Below, one piece after another: positions 20,930 to 57,318 of a DNA stretch of 64,000 bases. Origin of the DNA: Methyloversatilis sp. XJ19-49 (lineage in GTDB: Bacteria > Pseudomonadota > Gammaproteobacteria > Burkholderiales > Rhodocyclaceae). Made by a program: the position numbers and the translations under genes. The notes beneath the pieces are model-generated. The model saw nothing but the letters and a program-made list of their open reading frames with translations. It had not been told where the DNA came from and searched no databases. The stretch is taken from contig NZ_JANINI010000004.1 in NCBI RefSeq assembly GCF_024580145.1, positions 62,001 through 126,000 on the forward strand, written 5' to 3'. Position 1 is the first letter of the stretch; the number at the start of each line of letters is the position of its first letter.

Positions 20930-20954
20930 GCGCCTGACTGACCCACCAGAAAAC

Positions 20955-20981
20955 AAAAAGGCCAGTTCCGAAGAACTGGCC
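20955..20981 (-). terminator. Terminator behind tRNA-Lys
   Basis: On the minus strand GGCCAGTTC-TTCG-GAACTGGCC followed by TTTTTG, 17 bases beyond the tRNA CCA end. A strong tetraloop hairpin, the native terminator of the disrupted tRNA gene; it may also stop the antiporter transcript from the other side. Confidence 0.9.
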
Positions 20982-20998
20982 CAATTAAATGATTTTAC

Positions 20999-21048
20999 TG
21001 GTGGGTTGTGAGTGGCTCGAACACTCGACCTACGGATTAAGAGTCCGA
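20999..21048 (-). other. 3' half of tRNA-Lys(CTT), element attachment site
   Basis: Minus strand reads GGACTCTTAATCC (anticodon stem-loop, anticodon CTT), variable loop, a T arm with GTTCGAG, acceptor strand CACAACCC and CCA. The D arm and 5' acceptor strand are absent: upstream of the anticodon stem the sequence turns into AT-rich DNA leading to the integrase. A functional tRNA is therefore impossible here. This is the displaced 3' end left by site-specific integration near the anticodon stem; the restored gene should be at the far end of the element, outside the window. Confidence 0.85.
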
Positions 21049-21202: not shown

Positions 21203-21212
21203 AGGAGAGCTC

Positions 21213-22601
21213 ATGCAACGCGAACGACTGACTGCCGAACGCATCCGCCGATTCACCTGCCCGAAGGATGTGAAGCAGAGCTTCCTCTGGGATACCGAGG
21301 CCCCGCGTCTTGCGGTGCGTGCTACTGCGGGCGCAAAGTCTTTCGTCTTCGAGGCCAAACTTCATGGTCAGACCATCCGCCTGACTATCGGCGACGCGGC
21401 GGCATGGAAGATCGAAGATGCGCGCGCCGAGGCCTGCAGGCTGCAGACCCTGGTCAACAGGAAAGTCGATCCTCGCCAGGAACGTGCCGAAAAACTTGCA
21501 TCCATCGAAGCGCAGCGTGAGCGGGAAAAACGAGTTAAGTCCCCTGCGCTTGATGCGTGGGCGGAATACGTTGAGGCGCGGCGCTCGAAGTGGGGTGCGC
21601 GTACGCTTGCAGACCATCAAAGCATGGTTTCCGAGGGCGGAAAGCCGAAGACCCGCGGGCGGAAGAAGGGCGAGGGTGATACCACCCAGCCAGGCATCCT
21701 GCGCGCACTGCTGTTGCGCCCGTTGGAGAGCATCGACGCGGAAGCAGTGCGAGACTGGCTGAAGGAAGAGGTGAAGAAGCGGCCCACCTCGACCGCACTG
21801 GCATTTCGTCTGTTGCGAGCCTTCTTAAACTGGTGCCTAAGCCGGAAGGAGTTTGCTCCACTGATACATGCAGACGCGTGCAAAACTCGCACTGCGCGCG
21901 ATGAGTTGCCAAAGAGATCCGCGAAAGACGACTGCATGCAGCGGGAACAACTCGCGTTGTGGTTCGAGAAAGTGCGCGCCCTGCCCAACCCCGTGCATGC
22001 CGTGTATTTGCAGGTACTACTGCTTACCGGTGCTCGCCGCGAGGAGATCGCGGGCTTGCGCTGGGTGGATGTCGACTTCCGATGGAAGCGCCTCTTCATC
22101 AAGGACAAGGTGGAAGGCCAACGCGTCATCCCGCTCACACCCTACGTCGCGAGCTTGCTGCAGGATCTGAAGAACCTCCATGATGAGCACGAAAAGCGAG
22201 TGAGCAAACTGCGCGGTGCGGACAAGGAAAAAGCCGAGCAAATCGCCGAGCGGGTGCGTGAATGGGTGTTCAGCAGTCCGACCGCAGCATCCGGTCGGCT
22301 GCAGGAGCCACGTATCGCTCACAACAAGGCCTTGGCTGCCGCTGGCCTACCACCGCTGACGCTGCATGGTCTGCGTCGGTCGTTCGGCACGCTGTGCGAG
22401 TGGGTGGAAGCACCGAGCGGCATAAGCGCGCAAATCATGGGCCACAAGCCGTCTGCGATCGCCGAGAAGTACTACCTCCGCCGGTCGCTCGATTTTCTGC
22501 GCGTTTGGCACATCAAGATCGAGCAATGGATGTTGCAGCAGGCCGGCATCACGCAGTCGGAGGAACAGCTGTCCCAAATCGTCGACGCAGTCGTTAAATG
22601 A
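21213..22601 (+). CDS. Site-specific tyrosine integrase
   Basis: A 462-aa phage/island-type integrase. The N-terminal arm-binding DUF4102-like domain (RLTAERIRRFTCP..., LAVRATAGAKSFVFEAKL, LTIGDAAAWKIEDARAEA) is followed by a core-binding domain and a catalytic domain with Arg in LLTGARREEIAGLRW, box II LHGLRRSF, His in MGHKPSAIAEKYY and the nucleophile Tyr in the same stretch. It is 165 bases from the tRNA-Lys attachment site and transcribed away from it, so it almost certainly carried out the integration. ATG 21213 has CAGGAGAGCTC upstream. Confidence 0.95.
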   Translation: MQRERLTAERIRRFTCPKDVKQSFLWDTEAPRLAVRATAGAKSFVFEAKLHGQTIRLTIGDAAAWKIEDARAEACRLQTLVNRKVDPRQERAEKLASIEAQREREKRVKSPALDAWAEYVEARRSKWGARTLADHQSMVSEGGKPKTRGRKKGEGDTTQPGILRALLLRPLESIDAEAVRDWLKEEVKKRPTSTALAFRLLRAFLNWCLSRKEFAPLIHADACKTRTARDELPKRSAKDDCMQREQLALWFEKVRALPNPVHAVYLQVLLLTGARREEIAGLRWVDVDFRWKRLFIKDKVEGQRVIPLTPYVASLLQDLKNLHDEHEKRVSKLRGADKEKAEQIAERVREWVFSSPTAASGRLQEPRIAHNKALAAAGLPPLTLHGLRRSFGTLCEWVEAPSGISAQIMGHKPSAIAEKYYLRRSLDFLRVWHIKIEQWMLQQAGITQSEEQLSQIVDAVVK

Positions 22602-22723: not shown

Positions 22724-22906
22724 ATGGAACTGAAGCCCAACCAAACCGAAGCCGAGCACTTTCTCGCCTTGGCCGAAATCGAACGATTGTGGGACGCTCA
22801 GGAAGGTAGCGCCGCGGCGGATCGCCTTGAGGTCCTTGCCCTGAGTGTCGAGCGCTACGAGACGGCGCACTTTTCGATCGAGTTACCTGATCCGAGCGGC
22901 TTTTAG
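22724..22906 (+). CDS. HigA-N-like fragment (antitoxin without HTH)
   Basis: A 60-aa frame whose sequence (EAEHFLALAEIERLWDAQE, DRLEVLALSVERYETAHF, IELPDP) matches the N-terminal helical part of HigA-type antitoxins as I know them. In that family PDP is followed by an Xre-type HTH domain; here a stop comes three codons later (PSGF), so the DNA-binding part is missing. No HigB toxin frame is adjacent. The frame is open to ATG 22598, which overlaps the integrase stop (ATGA), but the Arg-rich extension looks unlike the family. It may be a decayed remnant or a short regulator of the integrase. Confidence 0.5.
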   Translation: MELKPNQTEAEHFLALAEIERLWDAQEGSAAADRLEVLALSVERYETAHFSIELPDPSGF

Positions 22907-36101: not shown

Positions 36102-36136
36102 CCCTCTGTTAGTCTTCGGGACTAAAGGAGTTGAAG

Positions 36137-38845: not shown

Positions 38846-39160
38846 ATGCGCTTCGTTCAGTGCCCTGAATTGCCCAAAATTTAAAATTTAAAATTTATTT
38901 TTTATTTTTCCATAATATTCTTTGAGGTTTTTACAACTTCTTGGGGTCAGTTCAACCCGGAGCGATTCAAACGCTGACTCTGACACTTACGTATCCAACA
39001 CTTTAAACAAATTAAAGCTTTGAGTTGAGACCATTCAAGACTTCGTTTTCACCATTAATTTCAGGCAACCCCTGCCCCGGACCACCCTCGAACCCACCCG
39101 TCAATCAAGTGTGAATCGGGCAATCGGAACAGGCGAGCACGACGTCGATCTACATCGTTG
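38846..39160. other. Intergenic region with hairpin and AT-rich tract
   Basis: A hairpin CACTGAA...TTCAGTG spans the 902-aa stop codon (38839-38862) and could help termination; an AT-rich tract follows at 38878-38920. At 38937 begins the IS-end remnant listed separately. The remainder up to the recombinase gene shows nothing. Confidence 0.4.
38937..38969. repeat. Solitary IS3/IS150-type right-end remnant
   Basis: CTTCTTGGGGTCAGTTCAAC and the following CCGGAGCGATTCA closely match the right terminal repeat of the IS150-like element that ends at 60040 (CTTCTGGGGGTCAGTTCAAA...GGCGATTCA). No transposase sequence is attached, so it is the scar of a lost copy. Confidence 0.65.
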
Positions 39161-40126
39161 TTAGGGCCTACCGATGTGTCGGGATTGATTCCGATTAGGG
39201 TAATTTTTGCCGTTGCTAATCGGGTGCAGTTTCACGGCCCTGGTGGCCTGGATCAACACTGGTACAACGCCACCTCCTTTTGACATTCCTGCGTGCCCGT
39301 AGCAGCTTTGAGTTTTTGTGGACGCATGTCCCAGAGCTCTCGCGATTTCCTCAGGTGTCTTTCCTGCAGCCTTGAGGTCACTTGCAAAAGAATGCCTCAA
39401 ATTGTAAGCACTCAGCCCAGTCTCACCCCCCAACCCCAAACGTAGAGAAGCTCGTTTAATGGCGGCGCTGTAAGCCTTGGTATCTATTGAATCAATCGTC
39501 ACAAAGCCTTGATTGTTTTTCGGCAGAGCTTTGACGGTCAAGACGATTTCAGAGAGAAATGGGCCCCTTGCTCCCGCGAGCTTATGGATCAACACCCTGG
39601 CAGGCTGTCCTGACGACGCCCTTACTTTGAGTCCTTTTATTCCAAATAAAATATAGTTCTTTATGACCTTAACCAAAAAACCCTCGCCGAATTCGCCAGG
39701 CCGACATCCGGTAACCGCACTTAAGGCGTAGTGCAGCCTGTACTTTTTCAACCCCGGTTCATCCCAAAGCAATTCCCGCCAGTTGGACGGCGCACCCCGC
39801 ATGTCCTTCCGCTTACTGTGCCGTGGTTTGCGAGTTTCTTTGGGAATCGGTGGCGCCGCCTGAAATGCTGTAATTAAATCGCTTAAGAAGCTTTGCGAAA
39901 GCGCTTGGATCTCGGTGGGAACGCGTGACAGCTCAAGAGCTTCGTCCGCCACATGTTCTCTGTAATTACTCCAGAAAAGAACTGCGGCCTTGTAACAGAA
40001 CCATGTATTGTTCTTGGTTGTTTGCCTTGCTTTCTCGAGTACCTCATTTGCGCTAGAACACCCATTTATCAGGCGGATGAAGACTTTCTCATACTGTTGT
40101 GTGGTTTTTTTTGCAGGTTGCGTCAT
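39161..40126 (-). CDS. Second tyrosine recombinase
   Basis: A 321-aa tyrosine recombinase unlike the integrase at 21213. Helical N-terminal SAM-like region, then catalytic Arg in SAVTGCRPGEFGEGF, box II AYNLRHSFASDLKAAG, and RALGHASTKTQSCYGHAGM with the His and the nucleophile Tyr. The usual first His of box II is replaced by Tyr (YNLRH), which occurs in some active members. ATG 40126 (MTQPAK) follows GGAGATGGTA; ATG 40138 is an alternative. It reads toward the IS scar at 38937. It might mark the edge of a separately acquired module; no attachment site was found near it. Confidence 0.88.
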   Translation of the reverse strand: MTQPAKKTTQQYEKVFIRLINGCSSANEVLEKARQTTKNNTWFCYKAAVLFWSNYREHVADEALELSRVPTEIQALSQSFLSDLITAFQAAPPIPKETRKPRHSKRKDMRGAPSNWRELLWDEPGLKKYRLHYALSAVTGCRPGEFGEGFLVKVIKNYILFGIKGLKVRASSGQPARVLIHKLAGARGPFLSEIVLTVKALPKNNQGFVTIDSIDTKAYSAAIKRASLRLGLGGETGLSAYNLRHSFASDLKAAGKTPEEIARALGHASTKTQSCYGHAGMSKGGGVVPVLIQATRAVKLHPISNGKNYPNRNQSRHIGRP

Positions 40127-40841
40127 TACCATCTCCATAAGTTGTACTACTCAGGAAATGTATGCGGCAAACTGAGAAAGTCAATTTCAGCCAAAAAAGG
40201 CATAATCGAGTCGGACTGAATTAAAGCCGGTCACGCCCGTCCCGAACGTGATCCGCTATTCGATTGCGGACTCTGTGTGACGCGCCGCCTCATCGGCTTC
40301 GCGCGACGATGTCAGTGGCGCGCACTATTGCGCCAATTCAATCACGCCCCACAGACTCGCTGCATCCCGAACATCAATCAAAGCTCTGAGAGTCCAACTT
40401 AACGGGTGACTCAACCCTCGGCACTCATGCCCACGATGTCGGAAAGGTCGATCGTTGCCTTGCAGGGATCAATCTCTGACTGGCAAGACGATGTCAGTCG
40501 AACGTTCGTTTCCCGGTAGCGCATTCGGGTTGCGCATGACCGTTCCCTTTCTTGAAAGGGTTGTCACCTCTGTGACTTCTGCGCTGAGGCTATATCGAGA
40601 TATCTCGGCGAAACGTGCGATGCCTACTCTTGTATCTGTTTGCGGTTGATTCTCCGGGAATCCGCAGATGATGAAGCGTTGGCGGATCGGATCGGATCGG
40701 ATCGTTCGCGCGATAAGCACGCACGACCGTCGGGTAGCAATATGAAATACTGAGTAGCGTGGACGTTGCGCGCATCACCTGTCCCCGGCCCTTCGTAAAA
40801 AGTGCCGTTTCGGCGGCTCGTTGTCTCGAACAGGAGAAACC
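40127..40841. other. Intergenic region, no supported gene
   Basis: About 700 bases. Contains a short tandem of GGATC (four copies, 40684-40703) and the leader of the next gene (CAGGAGAAACC). Otherwise nothing recognisable; base composition rises from AT-rich to GC-rich along it. Confidence 0.4.
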
Positions 40842-41498
40842 ATGTCTGCGTCGGAATCCAGTAGTCAACCCGAATCAATCACCGAGCCCTACGAGTGGAT
40901 TCGCGACACCGGGCCACTGGCCGGAAGTCTGGCGCGGCCTTTGGTCTATGCGTTCGAGCACATCACGCTGCCCGACGCACTTTTCACTCGCCACCCGGAA
41001 TTGATCAGCGCGCTCATCCCTGACGAACAGAGCGGGATGGCCTTTCTTCATATGTGGTCCAAAAGTTTTGGTGTCTGCCAGAGTCATGGCATGTTCAAGC
41101 CGGGATCAGCAAGCCACACCAGGTTGGAGATCGCGTACATCCGATCCATGCTCGGGTCGGTCAGCTGCAGAAAGGTCATATACGGAGAATTTGCGATATC
41201 GGTGCTCCGCACACCCCAACCCCGCGTGGGTGGAGAAACCTACTACGTCGCGTTGTGTCGTCGCCTCGACGACAACGCCGCCTATGACGGAACCCTTTCA
41301 CCATCAAGCAGGTATTTCACCTTCGAAGCCTTCGATCTCAAGGAGCATGCGTATTTTTGTGAATGGGATCATGGGCGGACCCACAGCAATATGGGCATGT
41401 TTCCGATCCTGAGCGAACAACAGTTTCTTGAACTGGTGTGCAGTCGGTTACCTTCAGGCAACCTCCCCACAAAACTGGAGACACCTGTTTTTGGCTAG
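40842..41498 (+). CDS. Hypothetical 218-aa protein
   Basis: Unrecognised soluble protein. Distinctive stretches are EPYEWIRDTGPLAGSLARPL, VYAFEHITLPDALFTRHPEL, KVIYGEFAISVLRTPQPRVG and YFCEWDHGRTHSNMGMFPIL. No signal peptide or membrane segment is visible. ATG 40842 is supported by AGGAGAAACC. It precedes the chaperone operon on the same strand but is separated from it by 875 bases with a decayed gene, so it probably is not part of it. Confidence 0.65.
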   Translation: MSASESSSQPESITEPYEWIRDTGPLAGSLARPLVYAFEHITLPDALFTRHPELISALIPDEQSGMAFLHMWSKSFGVCQSHGMFKPGSASHTRLEIAYIRSMLGSVSCRKVIYGEFAISVLRTPQPRVGGETYYVALCRRLDDNAAYDGTLSPSSRYFTFEAFDLKEHAYFCEWDHGRTHSNMGMFPILSEQQFLELVCSRLPSGNLPTKLETPVFG

Positions 41499-42373
41499 GG
41501 TCATGAGCAACGGATGATCAGACGAATGATCCGGCGCGTGCAAAATCGGAGGGCACCCTTCTCAGTCGCCGCGCTCGGGCACCTGCCAAGTTCTGACGGC
41601 TGACTCTAGAACGTCATGCCTGCTGTGCATCGTTCAGCGAAACGCCGACCGCTCGAACTGCCGCGCCGGGGCCGTCAAATGCCGTGTGCGGGTACTCCCG
41701 GAGCCTCTGCCAGTCCTTGGCGACACAGCCGCCTATGGCGCGTGAGCAGCAGGCTCCTAGGCCTTCGCCTTATCGTTCGCTTCGTCCTCGGCATCCGTAT
41801 CGCCGCGCAGCGTTTCGGCTCACATCAACAGCCCGGTCAGCACAGAACCCAGTGCGACCGCATCAAGGGGTTTGAGCCGCGGGCGCGAGCGGCGGTCGAT
41901 CTCGGGTCAGCACCGCAACACCCGCCGACACGAGCAGCGCCGGTATTTCATCGTTGCAGACGGCGCGCAGGGCAACGATGGGATCAGCGCCAGCCTGACC
42001 CGGCGTACCGAGGTCGAGGTCTATTACCAGCGCATCAGGCAGGCGCAGCGCGCTCTCCAGTTGCGCACGGGTCGCCGCACGTACCGGCCAGCGGTTGGTG
42101 CCGCGTGCGGGTCAGCCGAGGCGGCTCATCAAACTGTGAATTGAACGAGATTTTCCTCGGCACCGAGCGCGCGCTTCAGCCAGGCAAATTCGACGCAAGC
42201 GTTGCAGATTCATGACAGGCATTGAACGTTCCGCGATGGGTCGTTGTGCGAGGCTCTGGTACAGTCGAAACGGGTATATTGACGCTGCGTTGTAGCATGT
42301 CTGCGCCTGTTTTCGGTGACCGGCGAATCAGACATGCCCGTTCATTCGATGACGTTGCGGTGAGGGAGGAGGC
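41499..42373. other. Gap holding a decayed receiver-domain gene and the chaperone-operon promoter
   Basis: 875 bases without an intact gene. A minus-strand receiver-domain remnant lies at about 41820-42090. The 42150-42373 part should contain the promoter of the chaperone operon; TTGACG (42279) and nearby sequence are possible elements, but I see no clear heat-shock consensus. Confidence 0.4.
41820..42090 (-). pseudogene. Receiver-domain remnant of a hybrid sensor kinase
   Basis: Minus-strand translation gives LESALRLPDALVIDLDLGTP, ALRAVCNDEIPALLVSAGVA and then, after a frameshift, RLKPLDAVALGSVLTGLLM. This order (Asp in DLDLG, then LLVS, then KPLD) matches the C-terminal receiver domain of hybrid histidine kinases, but conserved spacing is lost and there is no kinase part. 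Probably leftover DNA from a deleted gene. Confidence 0.4.
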
Positions 42374-42754
42374 ATGGAAAGCATGCGGGGCGACCAAGGC
42401 GAACATCCCGAACGAAAGACCTTGATCGACGTTTCCGTCGAAGGCTGGCGTTTCGCTAAGGTGTTCGCCCGCCTGCTTGACAAACTCGATCCATGGGAAG
42501 CGGGGCGATACACCAATCAGGCCCGCTATTTCGCCAAGAAGATCGACGACGGACTCGAAACGTTCGGCCTGCGCATCGTCAGCCTCGAAGGCCAGCCCTA
42601 CGACCCTGGCATGGCGGTCTCCGCCTTGAACATCGCAGACTTCGGGCCGGACGATGTACTGATGGTCGACCAGATGGTCGAGCCGGTGGTCATGGGGCCC
42701 GAAGGACTGGTGCGCGGCGGAACCGTCATGCTTGCGAGGGTTGCCCAGCCATGA
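42374..42754 (+). CDS. GrpE-like protein of the accessory chaperone operon
   Basis: A 126-aa protein. The C-terminal half (YDPGMAVSALNIADFGPDD, VVMGPEGLVRGGTVMLARVA) matches the beta-wing pattern of GrpE nucleotide exchange factors, where EPxVxxxGxVxRxGxVxLARV closes the domain; the long N-terminal coiled coil of classical GrpE is mostly missing. GAGGGAGGAGGC precedes the ATG at 42374. Its last four bases overlap the Hsp70 ATG (ATGA), so it is coupled with it and likely acts as its exchange factor. Assigned from pattern and context. Confidence 0.7.
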   Translation: MESMRGDQGEHPERKTLIDVSVEGWRFAKVFARLLDKLDPWEAGRYTNQARYFAKKIDDGLETFGLRIVSLEGQPYDPGMAVSALNIADFGPDDVLMVDQMVEPVVMGPEGLVRGGTVMLARVAQP

Positions 42755-45246
42755 AGCACTACATCGGAATCGACCTCGGAACAACCAACAGTGCAGTGAG
42801 CGCCTACGACGGCGAGATCGTGCGCCTGTTCAAAAGTCCCGACCAGAACGATGTCACGCCCTCCGCGATATTCATCGACAGGCGCGGCAACAAGTATGTC
42901 GGCAAGCGCGCCTACGACAATGCGGCACGCAACCCTGAGAACGCTGCAACCCTGTTCAAGCGGCTGATGGGCACCAGCACGCCGGTCAAGTTGCCGGCGG
43001 TCGATCTGACACTGACCCCCGAGGAGTGCAGCGCAGAAATTCTGCGGGTGCTGTTTGGCTATCTCCCGGAGGATGTGCGCAACGACCCGGACACCGGCAC
43101 GGTGATCACGGTGCCCGCTGCGTTCAACCAGATGCAGAAGGACGCCACGATGGCGGCTGCCGAGATGGCGGGCATGGGCAAGGTCGCCCTGATGCAGGAG
43201 CCGGTCGCGGCCGTCATGAGTGTGATGCGCCACAGCAACGAGGACGGCATGTTCCTGGTGTACGACCTCGGTGGGGGCACCCTCGATGTTGCCATCGCCG
43301 AGAGCATCAACGGGCGGGTGAGTTTGCTGGCTCACGGTGGCATCGCCATGTGCGGCGGTCGCGATTTTGACCGCGCCCTGCTCGACAGCGTCGTCAAGCC
43401 CTGGCTACTTGAAAACTTCGATCTGCCGGAGGACTTCTACTCAGACGCGCGCTACACCACGCTACGTCACATGGCCACGTGGGCGGCGGAAAAGGCAAAG
43501 ATCGAGCTCTCGTCAAGCGACGAAGCTGTTGTCACGCTCGACGACAGCGAACTTCGTGTTCGCGACGAGGCGGGCGTCGACATTTACCTCGACATTTCTT
43601 TGAGTCGCCTGCGTTACGACGAACTGATTTCGGGGAAGATCGAAGAGTCCATCGCAGCGACTCGCGAAACCATGGAGAAGGCCGGACTGAACGCCGGCGA
43701 CATCGGCCGCGTGGTGTTCGTTGGAGGCCCGACCCAGTACAAGCCCTTGCGCGACAAGGTCGCAGTCGAACTGGGTATAGCCGCATCCACCGACGTGAAC
43801 CCGATGACTGCGGTGGCTGAAGGTGCAGCCGTTTTTGCCGAATCCATCGATTGGTCTAGCCAGAACCGTGGGCGAAAAAGCGGGCGCGGCGCGCTGTCGA
43901 CAGGTGGCGGGCTGGATCTGGCCTTCAACTACCGGGCGCGCACACCCGATTCAAAGGCCAAGGTGGTCGCTAGAATCGGCGGCAAGGTCGATGACGGGGT
44001 CGAGTTCCAGGTCGACAGCCTCGACACCGGATGGTCTTCCGGCCGCGTCGCGCTGACGGATGGCGCGAGTGTGGACGTTCCCCTGGCCAAGCCCGGCGAG
44101 AATCTGTTCAAGGTGTTCGTGTTCGATGCCGCCGGTGGGCCGGTCAAGCTTATGAAGGACAGGATCGGTATCTCGCGAACCGCTGCACAGATTGATGCGA
44201 TTCCGGCCTCTCATTCAATCGGGGTCGAGGCGCGGGAAAAGGTTGGCGGTCGAATGATCCTCGACTACCTGGTTCGCGATGGCGACCAGCTGCCCAAAAT
44301 CGGCAAGAAGACTTTCAAAGCTGAGGAATCGCTGCTCGCGGGCGCGGGAGGTTCGATCAAGTTCAAACTTTGGGAAGGTTCGATCGAAGACCCAGTCTCC
44401 GACAACCGCTTCATCGGCATGTTCGAAATCAGAGGATCGGACTTTTCCGCTGGCGTGATCGCCAAGGGTGCGGAACTCCAGTGTGCATACGAGGTGCTCG
44501 ATTCGGGCAACATCGTTCTGGAAGTCACGGTGCCTTCGATCGGCAACTCATTCTCCAGCGGCCGAAATTTCTATTCCAGGCAAGAAGGACAGATCGACTA
44601 TTCCAAGGCGACCGAACGCCTGACGGAGGAACTGGAGCAAATCGGCAACCGTCTGGATGAAGTTGAGTCAAAGATTGACGACCCCCGGATCGCTCAGGCG
44701 CGCGAGCGCCTGAGGCGCGCGTCGGTCGCCAAAGACCTCGAAGGCGACCCAGAAACGGCCAAACAGGCGATGGATGACATTCAGGAGGCGAAGAAACTAC
44801 TCGCGCTGGTTCGCAAGGAGCACATCAAGGTCATCCGGCAGATGGAACTCGACAAGGCAATTGAAAACTTCGAGCTGCGACTCCGTCAGATGGCCCGCCC
44901 TTCGGAAACCGTGGACTTCGAAAATCTGTTCAAGGCAGCGCAGCGTGCGATCGACAACAACCGTGGGGACTTTGATCTGCATCTGTCGGAGCTGAACGAC
45001 AAGAGCTTTCTGATTCTCTGGCGTCAAGACTGGTTTGTCATCAACCGGTTCCAGCAGCTTTCCAGGAACGTGTTTCTGTTTCCCGACACAGTTGAACACG
45101 AAAAGCTGTGCCAGATGGGGCAACTGGCTTTGAAAGCCAACGATATCAACAAGCTCCGGCAGGTCGTCGCCCGACTCGATTCGATTCGCGTGGGTACCTC
45201 GGGCGAGGACGACATAATCGCCAGTTCCAACATCGTGGTGAGCTGA
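42751..45246 (+). CDS. Divergent Hsp70 (DnaK-like) chaperone
   Basis: An 831-aa Hsp70, longer than DnaK (about 640 aa). The ATPase domain is clear: YIGIDLGTTNSAVSAYDG at residues 4-21, phosphate loop VYDLGGGTLDVAI (about 170), and VVFVGGPTQYKPLRDKV (about 322). After residue 375 the usual substrate-binding beta sandwich is replaced by a different beta-rich region (LDLAFNYRARTPDSKAKVVA), and residues 600-831 form a helical extension (KATERLTEELEQIGNRLDEV). The EEVD-like tail is absent. Thus it is a specialised Hsp70, coupled to GrpE-like and followed after two bases by an AAA+ gene. Confidence 0.9.
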   Translation: MKHYIGIDLGTTNSAVSAYDGEIVRLFKSPDQNDVTPSAIFIDRRGNKYVGKRAYDNAARNPENAATLFKRLMGTSTPVKLPAVDLTLTPEECSAEILRVLFGYLPEDVRNDPDTGTVITVPAAFNQMQKDATMAAAEMAGMGKVALMQEPVAAVMSVMRHSNEDGMFLVYDLGGGTLDVAIAESINGRVSLLAHGGIAMCGGRDFDRALLDSVVKPWLLENFDLPEDFYSDARYTTLRHMATWAAEKAKIELSSSDEAVVTLDDSELRVRDEAGVDIYLDISLSRLRYDELISGKIEESIAATRETMEKAGLNAGDIGRVVFVGGPTQYKPLRDKVAVELGIAASTDVNPMTAVAEGAAVFAESIDWSSQNRGRKSGRGALSTGGGLDLAFNYRARTPDSKAKVVARIGGKVDDGVEFQVDSLDTGWSSGRVALTDGASVDVPLAKPGENLFKVFVFDAAGGPVKLMKDRIGISRTAAQIDAIPASHSIGVEAREKVGGRMILDYLVRDGDQLPKIGKKTFKAEESLLAGAGGSIKFKLWEGSIEDPVSDNRFIGMFEIRGSDFSAGVIAKGAELQCAYEVLDSGNIVLEVTVPSIGNSFSSGRNFYSRQEGQIDYSKATERLTEELEQIGNRLDEVESKIDDPRIAQARERLRRASVAKDLEGDPETAKQAMDDIQEAKKLLALVRKEHIKVIRQMELDKAIENFELRLRQMARPSETVDFENLFKAAQRAIDNNRGDFDLHLSELNDKSFLILWRQDWFVINRFQQLSRNVFLFPDTVEHEKLCQMGQLALKANDINKLRQVVARLDSIRVGTSGEDDIIASSNIVVS

Positions 45247-45248
45247 GC

Positions 45249-46703
45249 ATGACGCCCGATAGCTGGCTTCCGATCGGATTCACTCTGCCGGACGGCACGC
45301 GGTGCGGCCGGCCGCTTCACGGCGACGCCCACTGGCAAATCCTCGACGCCCGCGATGGCGGCAAGGCACTGATCGTCACAGAGGATCTCTTCGCAAAGTG
45401 GGCTGCGGCCGGGCTGACCGGCGAAGCCGAATTCCGCGCCTTTTCATTTGGGTCCGATTCTTTCCGGGAGTTGTTTTGCGTCTCTGACCAGATGCTCGCG
45501 CCGCTGTCGGATTGTCGTTCGCCAAACAACAAGAACGAGGCACTGGCATTTGCGGCGGCGCTGCGGCAAACCCGCGCGATTGACCCCCACACGCCCCTGC
45601 AGGATGCAATCTATGTCGCAAAGCTCAGGCGCCTGCTGCCGACGTTCGGCGACACCGCGCCCGCGGGTGACGACGTTGTTCTCGGCCAGTGGCTCACCGG
45701 CGGTGCCGGCGTGTCAGTGAGGTCATTCCGCAGGCTTCAGCAGATGCTGACATGGTTAGGCGCCCAGGATCTGATGGACGTTGTGGACACTGCAGGAATG
45801 GGTGCTTCAGAAGGTTCCTCGACTTATGGCTTTCGCGCAGCGCAGGCACCACGTCAGGATGGCGTGCCGGCCAGCGACGCACGCACGCCTTCAGCAAGCG
45901 CGCGGCAGGGCGGCGGTGTCGCCTCGGACAAGGCCTTCGAGCTTCCGGGCCGGCCTGAACTCGAAGCTTTCTTCAACGAGCACGTCGTCGACATCGTTCG
46001 CAATCAGGCGCGCTACAAGGCGCTCGGCGTGGGTTTTCCATCAGCGATCGTTCTGCATGGGCCGCCCGGATGCGGCAAGACTTATGCGGTCGAGCAGTTG
46101 ATCGAGTTTCTTGGCTGGCCGGCTATTCAGATCGACGCTTCCGCCGTGGCAAGCGCCTTCATCCACGAAACCAGCCGCAAGATATCCGACGTGTTCGCGA
46201 AAGCGATGCAGATCGCCCCGTGCGTACTGGTCATTGACGAAATGGAGGCTTTCCTCGCCGACCGGGAAAGCGGTGGCGGAGGTGGCCACCACCGGGTCGA
46301 GGAACTTGCCGAGTTCCTGCGCCGCATCCCTGAAGCCGCCCGAAATGAAGTCCTGATCATCGCGATGACCAATCGGCTCGACATGATCGATTCAGCGATC
46401 ATGCGGCGTGGGCGCTTCGACCATGTCATCAAGGTCGACTACGCGAAAGAAGATGAAGTGCTTGCGCTGCTCAACAAGCTGCTGGTGACGCTACCGAAGG
46501 ACGAGACCGTCGATCCGGTGCCGTTGTCCCAAAGATTGACGGGTCGCCCGCTTTCCGATGTCACCTTCGTCGTTCGCGAAGGCGCCCGACTGTCTGCCCG
46601 CGCCGGACGCAATTCGCTGGGGCAGGCTTTTCTGCTCGCGGCACTCGATGCAACGCCGTCGAGAGATGGGGACAACGCCGGCCAGCGCATAGGATTTGTG
46701 TGA
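45249..46703 (+). CDS. AAA+ ATPase of the accessory chaperone operon
   Basis: A 484-aa protein. The N-terminal 215 residues are unrecognised (LPIGFTLPDGTRCGRPLHGD), then a low-complexity linker, then one AAA+ module: Walker A HGPPGCGKTYAVEQL (about 269), Walker B PCVLVIDEMEAFLADRE (about 325), sensor 1 VLIIAMTNRLDMID and arginine-finger segment AIMRRGRFDHVI. This is the classical FtsH/Cdc48-like AAA clade, with intact catalytic residues. It starts two bases after the Hsp70 stop (TGAGCATG). It may remodel or deliver substrates for the Hsp70, an inference from gene order. Confidence 0.9.
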   Translation: MTPDSWLPIGFTLPDGTRCGRPLHGDAHWQILDARDGGKALIVTEDLFAKWAAAGLTGEAEFRAFSFGSDSFRELFCVSDQMLAPLSDCRSPNNKNEALAFAAALRQTRAIDPHTPLQDAIYVAKLRRLLPTFGDTAPAGDDVVLGQWLTGGAGVSVRSFRRLQQMLTWLGAQDLMDVVDTAGMGASEGSSTYGFRAAQAPRQDGVPASDARTPSASARQGGGVASDKAFELPGRPELEAFFNEHVVDIVRNQARYKALGVGFPSAIVLHGPPGCGKTYAVEQLIEFLGWPAIQIDASAVASAFIHETSRKISDVFAKAMQIAPCVLVIDEMEAFLADRESGGGGGHHRVEELAEFLRRIPEAARNEVLIIAMTNRLDMIDSAIMRRGRFDHVIKVDYAKEDEVLALLNKLLVTLPKDETVDPVPLSQRLTGRPLSDVTFVVREGARLSARAGRNSLGQAFLLAALDATPSRDGDNAGQRIGFV

Positions 46704-46901
46704 AAGGTACCGATTTGGCGTATTTCAGAATTTGCCAGATGAGGGAACTATGCGTTGTGGGTCCGCACTTGCGGGCGCCCGCATGCGCGCAGCAGAAGCT
46801 CGCGCAGCAGCGGGGTGCATGCATCGCTTGGGTTTCTGAGAATTGGAATCCACACCCTTCTCCCTGACGCCAAACCTCATTTGCCAAGGGTTAGCATCGG
46901 C

Positions 46902-48521
46902 ATGAACCACATCAACACCGGGCTACACGCAAACCCGTTCAGCATTCTGGGCGTGACCCCTCAGGACGATCGCCGCAAGATCGTCGAGAGTGCGGAGGAA
47001 CGCGCTCTGCACCTGGACGGCAACCTGTGCTCGAAGGCCCGCGCCGACCTGACCCATCCGCGGGCTCGGCTTTCCTGCGAAATGGCGTGGCTGCCCGGAG
47101 TTGCCCCGGCCACCGTTGAAAAAGTCCTGCAGATGCTCGCGGATTCTCCGCAGGCGGTTCTGGCTGAGCCGGGCCTGTCCAGCCTGGCCCTCGCCAATCT
47201 GATGTCAGATGCGTGCGAGCGCGTTCCTGCGGACGAATCCGCTGCATCCCTGGCCGAATTCATGAGCGAGTTTGCCGATCTTGTTGACAGCATCGAGCCT
47301 GAAGCAGTCCTTCGCAATGTGAATGCCGACAGGGTGATCGCCGGGTTCCCCGAGGTGCGCGGGATTGACCTTGTCGAGGAGGAACTTGCCGAGCGTCGTC
47401 GAACATATCGATTGGCGCTGAAGAATCTTCTGGACTCCATGCACCCGGCAAGGCTCATCGACGCCATGACCGGGGCGGTGAAGAGAGCCACCCGCAACGG
47501 CGAGAAGCAAGGCTCGACATTGATCGAGGATCTGGTCGATAGCTACGAAGTCGAGGTGCAGGGGTTCCTACACAAGGAGCACGACAACATTACAACACTG
47601 CTCAATGCTGCCCGAGAGACGGCGCCGCTCGGCGAGACAGCACTCGTAGTGATTACGGCGAGGCTTGAGGCGGTCGTGCGCAAGTGGGTCAGGGTCGCGC
47701 AACCGATCCTGATCAGTGCCAAATCTCGCGGCACTGCGCATCCGATGAGCATGAAGGTTGGCAACGATCTCAGAAACCTCAGCGTTGAACTGAACAACAC
47801 GCATGGAATGCGCAATCATCTTCGCAGCATGATTGAATTTCTGCGGGAACTGTTTGCCGAACTCACACACCTGATGGAATTGCTGGAAGAAGACTCCAAG
47901 GCAATCGGCGCGTTTGACGAAACGAACGATCCGCATCGCATCAGCTTTCGCGCGAAGATTGGTTTTCCAATGTTCAGGCGGGAGTTGGGCATCTCGCCGG
48001 AGGGTGTGGTCTGGAACGGCGAAACCTTCCCGCTCGAGACGATCACCCGTGTGCGCTGTGGAGAAATGCGGCATGGGCCGGTGGGAACTGGCGTTATCAG
48101 ATACATCGTTGGGTTTGGAGACAATTTCTCGGAGCAAACCGTCAAGATATTCGATCAGGCAATCGCCGATGTGTTCATCGAGCGACTGTGGCGGGCAGTT
48201 TGTGTCGGACTGGTTTCCGACATGATTTCGGCGCTCGCCCAGGGCACATCCTTCCATTTCGAGAGCATCACGATCGAGGACGACGCCGTAACGCTGGTAA
48301 GGGAAAACTTTTTCGGGCTGAACGACCGGGTTCGCGTCGGTTGGGATGAAGTCGGCGTCGGTCGAAAGGACGGCTGCTTCTTGATCGGCCAGAGCAACAA
48401 AAGCAATGTCAGAGGGTCGGCGTGCTACGTCAGCACATGGAATGTTCATGTGCTTGAGCACGTCGTGCGCAACTGCCTGACAAGACGTTGCCTGAAACTC
48501 AGCGACTCGATAAGGGGCTGA
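46902..48521 (+). CDS. Degenerate J-domain protein of the accessory chaperone operon
   Basis: A 539-aa protein. Residues 7-60 (NPFSILGVTPQDDRRKIVES, CSKARADLTHPRARLSCEMA) match the helix I-II and helix III pattern of J domains, but the HPD tripeptide is not intact (ALHLDGN at the expected place). A long helical middle follows, and residues 330-420 (RISFRAKIGFPMFRRELGIS, VVWNGETFPLETITRVRCGE) look like a PH-like beta domain. It is separated from the AAA+ gene by 198 bases. Function as an Hsp70 cochaperone is inferred from context. ATG 46902 is chosen, the first Met before the J-like motif. Confidence 0.75.
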   Translation: MNHINTGLHANPFSILGVTPQDDRRKIVESAEERALHLDGNLCSKARADLTHPRARLSCEMAWLPGVAPATVEKVLQMLADSPQAVLAEPGLSSLALANLMSDACERVPADESAASLAEFMSEFADLVDSIEPEAVLRNVNADRVIAGFPEVRGIDLVEEELAERRRTYRLALKNLLDSMHPARLIDAMTGAVKRATRNGEKQGSTLIEDLVDSYEVEVQGFLHKEHDNITTLLNAARETAPLGETALVVITARLEAVVRKWVRVAQPILISAKSRGTAHPMSMKVGNDLRNLSVELNNTHGMRNHLRSMIEFLRELFAELTHLMELLEEDSKAIGAFDETNDPHRISFRAKIGFPMFRRELGISPEGVVWNGETFPLETITRVRCGEMRHGPVGTGVIRYIVGFGDNFSEQTVKIFDQAIADVFIERLWRAVCVGLVSDMISALAQGTSFHFESITIEDDAVTLVRENFFGLNDRVRVGWDEVGVGRKDGCFLIGQSNKSNVRGSACYVSTWNVHVLEHVVRNCLTRRCLKLSDSIRG

Positions 48522-48527
48522 CGGATC

Positions 48528-49178
48528 GTGACGCGAGACAACGGAAAAAAAAGAGGATTCGCAGCAATCGAGGGCATGGTGACCGATCTGGAGGCGCCAA
48601 GCCGGTCGTCTCGCGCCCTCTACGTCGGACAGCCGATCGCAACCTGGAGATACGCCTTCAACGGCAAGGGCTGGCTGATCATCAGCCTCTGCGTCGGCCT
48701 CCTTTTTGTACCGATAGGCGACCGTGACGCCAAGTCGTCGAAGTCAGGCCACGCATCGAGCGCGCCTGCCTCGCCTGCGCCGACCGTGCCCATACAGGCG
48801 ACTGCGGTCCCGCCTGCGCCGACACCGCTGCCTCCGCTCGAACCGGTCGTTGCAGGCAACACGCCACCCCAAACCAAAGTTTCGAGAACGTTGTTGGTAG
48901 AGCGTGTTCCCCCGATCGGCAAGGGACTCGTACTGGACCCGGCACAGATACGCTACTGCCTGTCGGAGGGCATACGTATTTCCGCTTGGCATGAGCGTGC
49001 GAACAGAAATTCGCAAAGCGCCGTCGACACGTTTAACGCTGTGGTCAATGACTATAACGCTCGTTGCAGCGATTTCAGCTATCGCAGCGGCACGCTCGAA
49101 AGCGTCCGTGCAGAGGTCGAAAAAAGCCGCGAAATGCTGGTCCAGCTGGGTTTTGAAAGCGCAGAGCGAAATCGTTGA
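48528..49178 (+). CDS. Membrane-anchored protein, last gene of the chaperone operon
   Basis: A 216-aa protein with one central membrane helix (GWLIISLCVGLLFVPIGDRD, about residues 48-66), a short cytoplasmic N-terminus, a Pro/Ala-rich linker (APASPAPTVPIQATAVPPAP) and a helical periplasmic tail with two Cys (RYCLSEG and ARCSDFSY). The GTG start at 48528 is six bases after the previous stop (TGACGGATCGTG). Unknown family; it may tie the chaperone complex to the inner membrane. Confidence 0.7.
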   Translation: MTRDNGKKRGFAAIEGMVTDLEAPSRSSRALYVGQPIATWRYAFNGKGWLIISLCVGLLFVPIGDRDAKSSKSGHASSAPASPAPTVPIQATAVPPAPTPLPPLEPVVAGNTPPQTKVSRTLLVERVPPIGKGLVLDPAQIRYCLSEGIRISAWHERANRNSQSAVDTFNAVVNDYNARCSDFSYRSGTLESVRAEVEKSREMLVQLGFESAERNR

Positions 49179-49329
49179 GGCAATTGGCGGATTGAGAATT
49201 GGGCTTAACTGGCGCAGTCGTCTCGGCTACCGTTTTTTTACTCGGCAACGCCTTGAACTGCACCGCCGCGCCTGCTCAGGTCGTCGCGAGCACCGGAAAT
49301 CCGACTGATCGATCAGTAAGTGGGGCGCC

Positions 49330-51013: not shown

Positions 51014-52018
51014 ATGGCACTTATAAATATAATTGTAGCGTTGGTAGGCGTCGGTGCAGTGGCACTGAATTCACACCCCGATTTTCCACCGCTAACGGCA
51101 TCGTATTTTTATGAAAGTGCCGAGCACGGCGAGATTTCTGCGCGTTTTTTTGGAACAACTACGATTTTATTCAACGACGGGGAAGACGCAATACTAATCG
51201 ATGGCTTTTTCTCAAGGCCGGACAAGAATAAAATTCTTTTCGGGAGACTATCCCCTGACAAAGCGCGACTTAAGAAAATCGTTGAATGTTGCATTCCATC
51301 TAACTTGAATTCAATATTCGTTGCGCACGCACATCACGACCACGCACTAGACGCCGGATTCATAGCAAAATTGACGGGGGCTACCATATATGGCTCGAGG
51401 TCGGCATTAATTGTAGCCAATGCAGTCGACAACACAGAACTCAAAAGCGTACTCAATGCACCATTAACGAATCAAGAAATTATACGGAACGGAAGTGTTT
51501 ATTCTTCCAAGAACAACAAATTTAAAGTGATTGCAATTGAAACCCCCCACTCCGCAAGCTTGTTGTCACAAGACTCAATTGATCCGGACTTCAGATTTCC
51601 CGCGAAGATTACCGATTTTAGACCGGGGGAAAACTATTCGTTTCTCATTGAGCACGAAAGCGCAGGCATTCTTTTTGTGACCAGCGCCAATAAATTAAGT
51701 GACGCACTTAAGGGACTCAAGGCCGATATAACAATATTGTCTATCGGTGGAATCGGAACAGAAACGAATGAATACACGCGGGTCAAACTCATCGAGGAGT
51801 ATTGGAACGCAGCGGTTAAGGCAACAGGAGCAAAGGTCGTGGTCCCAGTGCACTGGGATGACTTTACAAGACCGTTAGGCGAAACACTAGTTGCGTTTCC
51901 CTATGTCATCGATAGAGTTGATAGAACATTCGCCACGATACAGGTGCTCGCGAAACGAGATGGCGTCGCTATTCGATTCATGCCCACTAATAAGGTGGTA
52001 AAGCTAGCGCCACAATAA
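51014..52018 (+). CDS. MBL-fold metallohydrolase
   Basis: A 334-aa metallo-beta-lactamase-fold protein. The metal motif FVAHAHHDHALDAG has HAHHDH at residues 105-110, with a further His in ETPHSAS and a C-terminal VPVHWDDF. The N-terminus is hydrophobic (INIIVALVGVGAVALNS), a possible signal anchor. The fold resembles UlaG/YcbL-like hydrolases, substrate unknown. The region is AT-rich relative to the chromosome. It is followed after 122 bases by a subtilisin-like protease on the same strand, a pairing that may be functional. Confidence 0.85.
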   Translation: MALINIIVALVGVGAVALNSHPDFPPLTASYFYESAEHGEISARFFGTTTILFNDGEDAILIDGFFSRPDKNKILFGRLSPDKARLKKIVECCIPSNLNSIFVAHAHHDHALDAGFIAKLTGATIYGSRSALIVANAVDNTELKSVLNAPLTNQEIIRNGSVYSSKNNKFKVIAIETPHSASLLSQDSIDPDFRFPAKITDFRPGENYSFLIEHESAGILFVTSANKLSDALKGLKADITILSIGGIGTETNEYTRVKLIEEYWNAAVKATGAKVVVPVHWDDFTRPLGETLVAFPYVIDRVDRTFATIQVLAKRDGVAIRFMPTNKVVKLAPQ

Positions 52019-52140: not shown

Positions 52141-53565
52141 ATGAGCATTACGGATCGCGCCACAGAGTCGATATGGCAGGTGAGGTTAAAGCGCGGACAG
52201 GAAGCAATTTTTGAAGCTAATTTGCGGAAACTGAATCTTGATGTATGGGGGTCACTCTTGCTACCTGCAGGAGACCGGTGGCACGTCGTGTGTTCTGGCA
52301 TAACCGATGCGCTCGCTGACGACATAAGGACGAAATTGCTTTCGGCGGGTGCAGAAGCTGCTAATGAGATATCGGAGACCGCGCTCGTCGAAATTCTTCG
52401 AACCCGCGCAGCGGAAGATAACCAGAACCCTTCCCGCGCAGAGGATAACAGAACCGCACCCACATCGTTAGGACGTTATCGAAACGCCGATATTGAATTG
52501 GACTGGTTCCTTACGGCGAGTGGAATCCCTGACGCGTGGAACCAGTTTGTAAATCCGGAAGATTGGTCAGGAATTAAAGTAGGGCATATCGACACAGGAT
52601 ATACGGAACATACTGCACTTGGATTTGGAAGAAATGACTCTGCTCCGTTTGTGAAACCAAATCTAGGTCTTAATACTTTATACAACCCGCTTGCAATGAA
52701 TGATGAAGGCGCAATGTATAGGCGTACATCCGAATCGCCTAAACCTCTCGATAATCTATCTGGCGCCAACGGCGGCCACGGAACTCGAACAGCAAGTGTT
52801 TTGGCGGGCCTGTATGTACCACCAAGGCGGGGCGCGCCAGTCGCCCCATTTTTTGGAGCTGCGCCTGGAGTCTCTATCATTCCTTATCGCGTTACTGACT
52901 CCGTCCTCGTTGATCACGTGAAGGACGATATTTCAACCGCAATTCTTGATGCAGTCGAAAAAAAGGGGTGTAAGGTAATCAGCATAAGCCTCGGCGCGCT
53001 ATTTGGCTTAGGCAGTCTTGCCGCGGCTATCGACTGTGCTTATGAGAACGGTGTAATCATTTGTGCAGCCGCTGGCAACTATATCCGAGAGGTTATTTAC
53101 CCCGCGCGCTATAACCGAGTAGTAACAGTAGGAGGCGTGACCCCAGTTGAAGCAGACGGCAATTGGAATTTCAAACCGTGGAGCGGTTCTGCTCGGGGGA
53201 CGTATGTCGACATCTGCGGTCCCGCGGATCGCATCCGTCGCCCGTCAATGATTCGATCAAAAGGAAGAGAGAAGCAGGTGATTGAAGCCAATGGTGACGG
53301 AACGTCCTATGCAACCGCGATCTGTGCAGGCATCGCGGTTCTATGGCTTGCTAAACATGGTGAGGCAGCACTGGTCGAAAAGTACGGAGACCAACGTTGG
53401 GCGCGCGTGGCTGCTTTTAAACACCTACTTACAGCATCAGGCATTTGCACGACACCACCCGGATGGGATAACGACCTTTTCGGCGCGGGCGTATATCACG
53501 CAGGGCGTTTGCTGGAAGCTCCTCTTCCTAGTCTCTCAGACCTTACGCGCGAGGCTAACGCATAG
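52141..53565 (+). CDS. Subtilisin-like (S8) serine protease
   Basis: A 474-aa protease. The catalytic triad is intact: Asp151 in IKVGHIDTGYTEH, His213 in GGHGTRTASVLAG, Ser389 in NGDGTSYATAICAG, and the oxyanion Asn in ICAAAGNYIRE. No signal peptide is visible at the ATG (MSITDRATESIWQVRLKRGQ), so it is probably cytoplasmic, which is unusual for S8 enzymes and fits a regulated or defence role. The first 120 residues are an unrecognised N-terminal domain. TTGGAGAAAAT gives a strong ribosome binding site. Confidence 0.92.
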   Translation: MSITDRATESIWQVRLKRGQEAIFEANLRKLNLDVWGSLLLPAGDRWHVVCSGITDALADDIRTKLLSAGAEAANEISETALVEILRTRAAEDNQNPSRAEDNRTAPTSLGRYRNADIELDWFLTASGIPDAWNQFVNPEDWSGIKVGHIDTGYTEHTALGFGRNDSAPFVKPNLGLNTLYNPLAMNDEGAMYRRTSESPKPLDNLSGANGGHGTRTASVLAGLYVPPRRGAPVAPFFGAAPGVSIIPYRVTDSVLVDHVKDDISTAILDAVEKKGCKVISISLGALFGLGSLAAAIDCAYENGVIICAAAGNYIREVIYPARYNRVVTVGGVTPVEADGNWNFKPWSGSARGTYVDICGPADRIRRPSMIRSKGREKQVIEANGDGTSYATAICAGIAVLWLAKHGEAALVEKYGDQRWARVAAFKHLLTASGICTTPPGWDNDLFGAGVYHAGRLLEAPLPSLSDLTREANA

Positions 53566-57086: not shown

Positions 57087-57318
57087 ACGGTCACCTTTCG
57101 ATTGGGTTGAGCGCACAGGCCAATGTTTCGCTGGCCCAGAGGGGCGAGCCGTTCAAGCGGAAAATGATGAACTTCTGGGCGCGGGCGAGCAAGGCCAACT
57201 GCCGATTCACTGAATCTCGCAGACTGGGTGATCCACCGAATTGATGAAATCGAGCGCCTGAGACGACTGTAGGCAAGGGAGCTTTTGGGGACGGTCGTCT
57301 GTGACGGCGCTGAATAAC

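Follow-up and report, generated by a model that had tools for sequence, protein, structure and literature searches.

Introduction

In the part of Kaur et al. 2020 available to us (PMC7159879), genes for HSP70, GrpE and DnaJ lie beside a GAP1-N2 GTPase in proposed conflict systems, which are found predominantly in actinobacteria and firmicutes and are built around the GTPase and an FNIII protein. The accessible portion of the CoCoNuT account (PMC11090510) describes an Hsp70-like unit fused to McrB or McrC, with Walker A-like motifs called degenerate and with RNases present. Genomic islands of Pseudomonas aeruginosa clone C carry ClpG and sHsp20, according to the sections of the source at hand (PMC7685784), and bNACHT25 needs host DnaJ, as stated in the available text of its description (PMC12169576). 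Here, we report a five-gene operon in a 64,000-nucleotide stretch of DNA (hereafter, the window) from Methyloversatilis sp. XJ19-49 (contig NZ_JANINI010000004.1, positions 62,001 to 126,000), which encodes a GrpE-like protein, an Hsp70, an AAA+ ATPase, a J-like scaffold and a single-pass membrane protein. The operon is a new, widespread and mobile variant of an Hsp70 system that comes with an unexpected shared tag, and we propose a role for it.

No named system among the Pfam, NCBIfam and PADLOC models fits the operon, and an earlier model-made reading of this DNA (the original prediction) was right in that no described system of exactly this composition was recognized. PADLOC 2.0.0 (2023), the anti-phage model set that was used, covers systems named up to 2023. 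A literature search, whose coverage was thin for subscription journals and nil for bioRxiv preprints, returned no description of the operon.

Results

Five intact genes form a conserved operon

The five predicted plus-strand genes at 42374-49178 were confirmed, each as an intact open reading frame (ORF), with spacings of -4, 2, 198 and 6 nt. The genes and the block shared with a congener (genome G436, locus L140) are as follows.

42374..42754, plus strand: gene 1, GrpE-like; intact ORF of 126 amino acids
42751..45246, plus strand: gene 2, Hsp70; intact ORF of 831 amino acids, overlapping gene 1 by 4 nt
45249..46703, plus strand: gene 3, AAA+; intact ORF of 484 amino acids, 2 nt from gene 2
46902..48521, plus strand: gene 4, J-like scaffold; intact ORF of 539 amino acids, 198 nt from gene 3
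48528..49178, plus strand: gene 5, single-pass membrane protein; intact ORF of 216 amino acids with a GTG start, 6 nt from gene 4
42232..49183, plus strand: operon block shared with G436 (blastn against L140, 95% identity), ending at most 5 bp from the last stop codon

These genes are a real, intact and conserved operon. The ratio of nonsynonymous to synonymous substitution rates (dN/dS) against the 95%-identical congener copy is 0.10, 0.08, 0.22, 0.27 and 0.29 for genes 1 to 5, respectively, indicating that all five are under purifying selection. Chance ORFs are ruled out by these ratios together with the conservation of the gene set around relatives. For genes 1, 4 and 5, Pfam yields no family at E <= 0.1, and a promoter and terminator scan of the operon gave a signal at chance level.

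The gene set recurs widely around the relatives that were fetched, so that the five genes co-occur well beyond the window. A collection of 84,980 species genomes was pattern-scanned with the Hsp70 ATPase segment, yielding 263 matching stretches, the best 80 of which were fetched and their genes called by a simple ORF script rather than a gene finder. Neighbour counts use only the loci with enough flanking DNA, which drops 2 of the 80 for gene 1, 12 for the AAA+ gene and 27 for both the J-like gene and the membrane gene with an RYC domain. On this basis, a GrpE-like gene lies upstream of the Hsp70 gene in 78/78 relatives and an AAA+ gene downstream in 65/68, and the J-like and RYC membrane genes are present in 52/53 and 47/53, respectively. 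The commonest order among 53 loci is AAA-RYC-J (34/53); the AAA-J-RYC order of the window is found in 10. Loci L060 and L064 share an identical run of ORF sizes upstream of the operon (423, 343, 1039, 682, 227, 220 and 103 amino acids), which perhaps represents another linked system or simply reflects that the two loci are close relatives.

The record titles of the relatives name Betaproteobacteria, Gammaproteobacteria, Alphaproteobacteria and deltaproteobacterial lineages, and metagenome-assembled genomes labelled Chlorobium, Acidobacteria, Poribacteria and Thermoflexus, whose labels may reflect contamination, are also among them. The operon occurs in 4/398 drawn proteobacterial genomes (the window's own counted), in 2/13 genomes of the window's genus and in a single E. 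coli genome (HeN100) out of 5426. A first genome scan with gene 4 as the sole query found no relative. The operon is widely but sparsely distributed, in keeping with mobile cargo.

Does the operon serve the elements that carry it? DnaK, DnaJ and GrpE serve some plasmids and phages, and the operon might similarly aid the replication, transposition or transfer of a mobile element or the assembly of an envelope transfer or secretion complex. Such a role would fit the presence of the operon on plasmids (13 matches with a gene 4 query and 14 with an Hsp70 C-terminus query among 72,556 plasmid records), in a tRNA island, on Tn7-like elements and on a few viral contigs (7 loci matched, which may be other mobile DNA), and the membrane proteins of some copies are annotated with peptidoglycan-binding domains. 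However, the same operon is found on unrelated element types and also in a degraded island, the annotations of the six plasmid stretches that were viewed include no conjugation gene, and neither gene 4 nor the Hsp70 C-terminus gave a tblastn match among 50,697 phage records, which also leads us to reject a phage gene set. We regard a service role as quite improbable.

The Hsp70 combines an intact ATPase with a predicted DnaK-type substrate-binding domain

The Hsp70 encoded by gene 2 is organized as follows.

Residues 5-364: ATPase domain (Pfam HSP70, E 1.4e-56)
Residues ~379-458: extra beta domain (AlphaFold model)
Residues ~471-602: DnaK-type substrate-binding beta domain (AlphaFold model)
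Residues ~617-812: helical tail of nine helices (AlphaFold model)

The Pfam match agrees with the intact ATPase that had been predicted, and the phosphate and adenosine motifs of the actin-like ATPase fold are intact in 75-77 of 77 Hsp70 relatives, depending on the motif. The AlphaFold model covers residues 352-831 (58-row alignment, pLDDT 79.5, pTM 0.62). When this C-terminal model was searched with Foldseek, the substrate-binding domains of DnaK, HscA and BiP ranked at the top (E 3.6e-8; best 50 of 107 matches at E <= 0.001), with low TM-scores of about 0.2/0.4 against the DnaK domain, and a profile search with the C-terminal region found a mitochondrial Hsp70 fragment (E 0.0066). Given these DnaK-type and mitochondrial Hsp70 matches, the modelled substrate-binding domain is divergent and preceded by an extra domain, and has not been replaced, contrary to the original prediction. 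The tail is helical as predicted, with a length of about 195 rather than 230 residues.

The operon is distinct from the housekeeping chaperone locus. A separate DnaK-like Hsp70 (at least 810 bits) is encoded in 35/35 host genomes, the Marinobacter (G430) copy being split by TGA. By our reading of the match table, 28/35 genomes have this gene on a different contig from the operon, and in the remaining 7, where the two share a contig, at least 232 kb separates them. The grpE, dnaK and dnaJ genes of the window genome form a cluster on another contig, C44. These two observations rule out the housekeeping dnaK locus, in line with the original prediction, and the operon is not a companion of core dnaK loci.

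Two further observations concern Hsp70-like proteins. The PADLOC model PDC-M61B matches the operon Hsp70 at E 0.0014. Four Burkholderiales genomes contain paired, adjacent long Hsp70-like ORFs (626-1390 amino acids) that belong to a different accessory Hsp70 family (G398:C13:210995-213365, G407:C2:499282-501755, G412:C66:35278-37673 and G415:C8:2523748-2526235).

The partner proteins resemble GrpE, Cdc48/FtsH-type AAA+ and J-domain proteins to different degrees

The C-terminal half of gene 1 resembles the GrpE head, and a long coiled-coil is missing. Its NCBIfam GrpE match is marginal (E 0.038), and among its relatives Pfam GrpE is matched at E <= 0.1 in 16/52, with a best E of 0.0046 and none confident. 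In an hhalign comparison with 20 genuine GrpE proteins, gene 1 reached a probability of 41.7 (E 2.7e-4) over 37 columns that include the G-x-x-F/Y-D-P motif, compared with 0.1 for a control against J domains. No GrpE was among the matches of PDB profile searches with gene 1. The GrpE-like label thus holds as a resemblance that is weak as homology, and gene 1 is likely, but not proven, to encode a GrpE relative.

Gene 3 encodes an intact AAA+ ATPase (Pfam AAA, E 2.6e-29), as predicted, with one classical-clade AAA+ domain behind an unassigned N-terminal region (~1-245). The motifs GPPGCGKT, VLVIDE and RRGRFD are present, and in the AAA+ relatives Walker A is found in 63/69, Walker B in 67/69 and the RxGRFD finger in 69/69. 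The nearest solved relatives are NVL, Cdc48/VCP, AFG2 and FtsH, and only AAA-type PADLOC models match (IetA, TRIP13 and weaker ones). These sequence features place gene 3 in the classical clade (Cdc48/FtsH-type) of AAA+ proteins.

The AlphaFold model of gene 4 (pLDDT 93.2) shows a J-like helical N-terminus, a helical middle region and two beta-plus-helix modules at the C-terminus, which appear PH-like in our reading of the secondary structure of the model alone. The HPD motif is absent from gene 4 and from the relatives scanned (0/73 ORFs), as the original prediction had stated for gene 4, and the J homology itself is unproven. By eye, the N-terminal helix pattern of the model is compatible with a J fold, and an hhalign comparison with J domains gave a probability of 9.9 with the last helices in register, whereas two unrelated comparisons gave 0.1 and 0.3. 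J domains were not among the matches of PDB profile searches with gene 4, and a fold search found no PDB match at E <= 0.001.

A short tag is shared by the membrane proteins

Gene 5 consists of an N-terminal tag, one predicted transmembrane (TM) segment (a single hydrophobic stretch from residue ~46) and the RYC domain that is common to gene 5 and its relatives, in agreement with the expected membrane anchor. The RYC domain presumably lies outside the cytoplasm, and the tag would face the cytoplasm. An NCBIfam autotransporter model matches gene 5 at E 0.011, which we ascribe to Pro-rich low complexity. The position of the tag in the window is as follows.

48552..48596, plus strand: N-terminal tag of gene 5, RGFAAIEGMVTDLEA, the window version of the family consensus KGFAGLSSLVSDVD

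The GFxGLxxLVSD-like tag precedes the TM segment in the long version of the operon, where the membrane protein is separate. Among the 65 RYC ORFs of L020-L106, it is detected in 52 by a strict pattern and in 64 by a loose five-residue pattern, and the sole ORF that lacks it by the loose pattern is that of L106. This locus is one of four of a short version (L013-L015 and L106, from two Sinorhizobium, an Aminobacter and a viral contig), in which the J-like protein is fused to the TM segment and the RYC domain. The other three, L013, L014 and L015, also lack the tag, and no operon-type AAA+ was found in any of the four. Such a loss of the tag together with the fusion suggests that the tag docks to the J-like/Hsp70 complex.

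The tag is not confined to RYC proteins. In a scan of 98 loci, the strict pattern matched near possible starts 87 times, at RYC ORFs in 68 cases and at other ORFs in 19 (2 of which seem spurious on inspection by eye), and the 32 control loci contained no strict match near a start. Eleven of the 19 non-RYC ORFs, from 10 loci, were inspected: 9 have one predicted TM segment, located in 8 of these 61-92 residues past the tag. Their outer parts differ, being TPR-like in L027 and composed of repeated modules in L041, as judged by eye. A few may be broken RYC genes, given that the second tagged ORF of L034 and that of L055 reach the end of the DNA or contig and that of L048 is short. In addition, an extended operon occurs in L009 (10667-14474), L010, L029, L036, L039, L040 and L050, from some gamma- and betaproteobacteria, with extra downstream genes of about 214-219, 164, 349 and 217 amino acids; the ~349-residue product bears the tag, and L009 and L010 include an RDD family protein.

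A tag that is short, partly hydrophobic and charged at its ends, placed on otherwise different proteins that are mostly single-pass (among those inspected) and variable in their outer parts, would also suit a titration mechanism. In such a mechanism, the Hsp70 or the AAA+ protein would keep the tagged membrane proteins quiet until foreign or misfolded proteins divert the chaperones, and the freed membrane proteins would then act, for example by damaging the envelope, with the chaperones as the sensor rather than the effector. That loci with a fusion of the J-like and membrane proteins lack the tag speaks for this mechanism too. However, toxic activity was not recognized in the outer domains, the fused version leaves no separate effector to release, and the AAA+ protein can be absent; we consider titration very doubtful.

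The window copy resides on an integrative island in a tRNA-Lys gene

The following features of the window delimit or accompany the island.

20946..21047, no strand assigned: left attachment site (attL), the 3' part of tRNA-Lys(CTT) plus downstream bases; a 102-bp repeat, 96% identical at C34:154509-154610
21213..22601, plus strand: island tyrosine integrase beside attL (Pfam Phage_integrase and Arm-DNA-bind_3), starting 166 bp inside attL
39161..40138, minus strand: second putative tyrosine recombinase, within a 94%-identical G436 block (39061-41462)

The window copy of the operon sits firmly on an integrative genomic island in a tRNA-Lys gene, on the basis of an integrase, direct-repeat att sites in the tRNA gene and a relative that lacks the island; the integrated element of the original prediction is thereby delimited. 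At C34:154509-154610, outside the window, ARAGORN detects an intact tRNA-Lys(CTT), and the window copy is its 3' end. The island measures ~71.6 kb, from window position ~20999 to 28.6 kb past the window end. In the congener G441, both flanks of the island meet at the tRNA-Lys gene, separated by only 1.7 kb of other DNA, so that this is not a cleanly empty site. Phage_integrase is matched by 2 island proteins, and the assignment of one of them to 39161..40138 is our own. The congener G436 also has the integrase region (20999-22903, 87% identity); blastn of other window stretches against 20 kb of its locus gave no further match, and nothing in the window genome matches the right flank of its operon block.

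Forty-two island proteins were scanned with PADLOC, and single members match SspB, SspC, SspD, SspF, SspG and SspH (best E of each <= 1.2e-112); Pfam families among the island proteins include DUF4007, PAPS reductase and FtsK. By our assignment of positions, the Ssp genes lie outside the window at C34 ~135-154 kb (L144:9032-18257 and L173:2697-7828). Three adjacent genes taken for SspB, SspC and SspD are 96-99% identical in the G436 island.

Other island genes within the window deserve mention. A 904-residue protein (36131-38845) matches no Pfam, NCBIfam or PADLOC model at E <= 0.1. A subtilase-family protease (52141-53565; PADLOC subtilase model, E 1e-8) lies beside a 334-residue protein (51014-52018) whose sequence looks by eye like a metallo-beta-lactamase fold, and the two perhaps form a further defence pair near the IetA-like AAA+ gene 3. 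With Pfam matches assigned to ORFs by us, 23948-25462 and 34280-35977 probably encode a NYN-domain protein and an RNase-like beta-CASP/RMMBL metallo-hydrolase, and 55845-57116 likely encodes a protein with a phospholipase domain like that of Tle1 of the type VI secretion system.

Other copies are found in mobile settings, some of them with defence genes

The window copy and several named cases can be placed on islands with confidence. On the Polaromonas plasmid pPNAP01, zorA is located 4 kb upstream of the operon; downstream come helicase genes and, at 8 kb, brxD, with other genes between. On Shewanella and Aeromonas plasmids, the operon sits behind Tn7-like tnsD/tnsE, and locus L029 of Aeromonas simiae has TnsD and TnsE homologues. 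In E. coli HeN100, the operon occupies a degraded island and is followed by an IS3 element and the RADAR gene rdrB, and then by an IS1 element and a dptF remnant, with rdrB and the dptF remnant lying a few kb downstream.

Flanking regions were compared with controls for 35 loci, and a control region was available for 32 of them (G404 and G417 were not drawn, and G405 had no contig long enough). PADLOC was run at E <= 1e-15 on 238 flank and 229/235 control proteins (6 from L138 left out), and Pfam on 145/238 flank and 110/235 control proteins. The flank matches listed (25/107 families in the second batch) include HmaB, ZacB/C, SngC, HEC-05, HEC-09, BilD, BrxHI, HamA, Type I restriction-modification, WYL and Cas3c. 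The control matches listed (25/43 families in the second batch) include GajB and RTasHel (UvrD-like), mad, PDC-M37B and DolB. Phage integrase is matched by 7/145 flank proteins and by none among the control families listed (25/106, where a single match could be hidden). A general enrichment of the operon in defence islands is suggested only.

These settings bear on a different reading, in which the operon is a mobile stress-tolerance module, an accessory Hsp70/AAA+ folding and disaggregation machine that would protect envelope or cytosolic proteins from heat, oxidants or metals and whose island location reflects mobility only. The recognizable parts are of chaperone type with no recognized toxic effector, cadR and a cation transporter gene lie close to the Shewanella copy on its plasmid, and chaperones such as ClpG and sHsp20 do occur on islands, according to the portion of the source at hand (PMC7685784). 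However, Pfam and NCBIfam detect neither a protease nor a small heat-shock protein or Clp-type chaperone in the operon, and the operon has named defence genes as neighbours on pPNAP01, in E. coli HeN100 and on the window island. Nor, to our knowledge, do the ClpG/sHsp20 islands, which in P. aeruginosa clone C are called TLQC, feature membrane docking or a shared tag. A stress-tolerance module is a possibility to be taken seriously, albeit a somewhat unlikely one.

Discussion

What is the biological function of a five-gene Hsp70 operon that travels on mobile DNA? Tentatively, and with somewhat less than even confidence, we favour a membrane-docked Hsp70/AAA+ remodelling machine on mobile islands that provides accessory protection, probably antiviral. 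Its composition, motifs, predicted folds, tag and window-copy mobility are drawn from sequence or models. The proposal is backed by a composition kept across many genera and several labelled phyla, by intact catalytic motifs in the Hsp70 and AAA+ proteins, by the substrate-binding fold, by purifying selection, by the tag and the J-membrane fusions, and by mobile, defence-rich settings (the Ssp island, HeN100, pPNAP01 and the Tn7-like elements). The genomic location of the operon is what points, indirectly, to an antiviral role.

In the machine that we propose, the tag, or the covalent fusion in the short version, would bring the J-like scaffold, the Hsp70 and the AAA+ protein to the inner membrane. 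The Hsp70 would capture polypeptides there, the GrpE-like protein would reset the Hsp70, and the AAA+ ring would unfold or pull apart the captured complex. Less surely, the target may be a foreign or envelope-associated protein that is produced or introduced as a phage or plasmid enters, and the machine may be a defence or anti-conflict module rather than part of general heat-shock proteostasis.

Several results weigh against this proposal. The GrpE and J homologies appear weak, and no nuclease, toxin or nucleotide cyclase is recognizable in the operon. The AAA+ protein could equally be the partner of the tag, since the AAA+ protein and the tag are both missing in the same fused loci, which do not distinguish between the two partners. 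As for the surroundings, the Ssp phosphorothioation defence genes of the island are ~24-43 kb away from the operon and do not adjoin it. In the first flank batch, at most 11/145 proteins are PADLOC-positive at E <= 1e-15, several by generic models; the control regions gave PADLOC matches too, and the richness of the second batch, for which no per-locus breakdown exists, may stem from a few loci. Moreover, tblastn with a few integrase and transposase seeds matched 4/87 test loci and 1/32 controls, with no clear excess.

We also raise, as an unlikely reading, a trans-envelope alarm or capture system in which several single-pass proteins with variable outer domains plug via the KGFAGLSSLVSDVD tag into a common Hsp70/J-like/AAA+ engine. 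An event outside, such as phage adsorption or wall damage, would trigger ATP-driven unfolding, on the inside, of a protein that is entering or anchored there, and tag docking and J-like fusion would be alternative routes to the same connection. We know of no description of such a chaperone-powered immune or envelope-guard machine.

If the favoured proposal is true, bacteria carry a complete, private, membrane-tied Hsp70/AAA+ machine on mobile DNA, apart from their housekeeping chaperones, and energy-driven protein remodelling joins the ways in which cells handle invaders. The shared tag offers a simple handle on the communication between membrane proteins and chaperones. Even if the role is in stress, a conserved multi-gene Hsp70 system that is found in 263 stretches and is nameless in the libraries searched marks a gap in the chaperone catalogue. 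Laboratory tests in E. coli should be feasible, since one of 5426 genomes of this species has the operon.

Among known systems, bNACHT25, as far as its available description goes, shares the co-option of a chaperone in phage sensing and differs in using host DnaJ and a NACHT protein with no dedicated Hsp70 operon. The ClpG/sHsp20 islands resemble the operon as mobile chaperone cargo, whereas its protein families are different and an Hsp70 set is not among theirs in the sections of the source at hand.

IetAS/IteA provides the nearest antiviral models to the gene 3 AAA+ protein (PADLOC IetA, E 5e-24; NCBIfam IteA, E 3e-23). However, gene 3 scores 82 bits against the IteA cut-off of 510 bits, FtsH and PAN models score higher, and the subtilase gene (52141-53565) lies ~3 kb downstream, beyond the G436-shared block that ends at 49183. 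With a score so far under the cut-off and a subtilase outside the conserved block, we do not assign the operon to IetAS/IteA.

CoCoNuTs share an Hsp70-like unit within a defence-linked operon. In contrast to their fused Hsp70-like unit, as given in the accessible portion of the account, the Hsp70 described here stands alone with intact motifs, and the five proteins have no RNase match and no McrB or McrC match in Pfam, NCBIfam or PADLOC. The GAP1-N2 GTPase systems are the nearest published theme that we found, as a single accessory neighbourhood there unites Hsp70, GrpE and a DnaJ domain. The operon differs from them, within the part of the source at hand, in having an AAA+ protein and a tagged membrane protein instead of the GTPase; no GTPase was matched in the five proteins by Pfam or NCBIfam, libraries in which the presence of a GAP1-N2 model is unchecked.

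The canonical DnaK-GrpE-DnaJ system, with ClpB, has several parts in common with the operon: an Hsp70 with its ATPase and substrate-binding fold, a GrpE-resembling partner, a J-like protein and an AAA+ partner. Unlike the canonical system, the operon coexists with a separate host DnaK-like gene (35/35), its Hsp70 has an extra beta domain and a long helical tail, and its J-like protein has no HPD. Its AAA+ protein contains one classical Cdc48/FtsH-type domain rather than being an Hsp100, a membrane protein is included in the set, and the whole is mobile.

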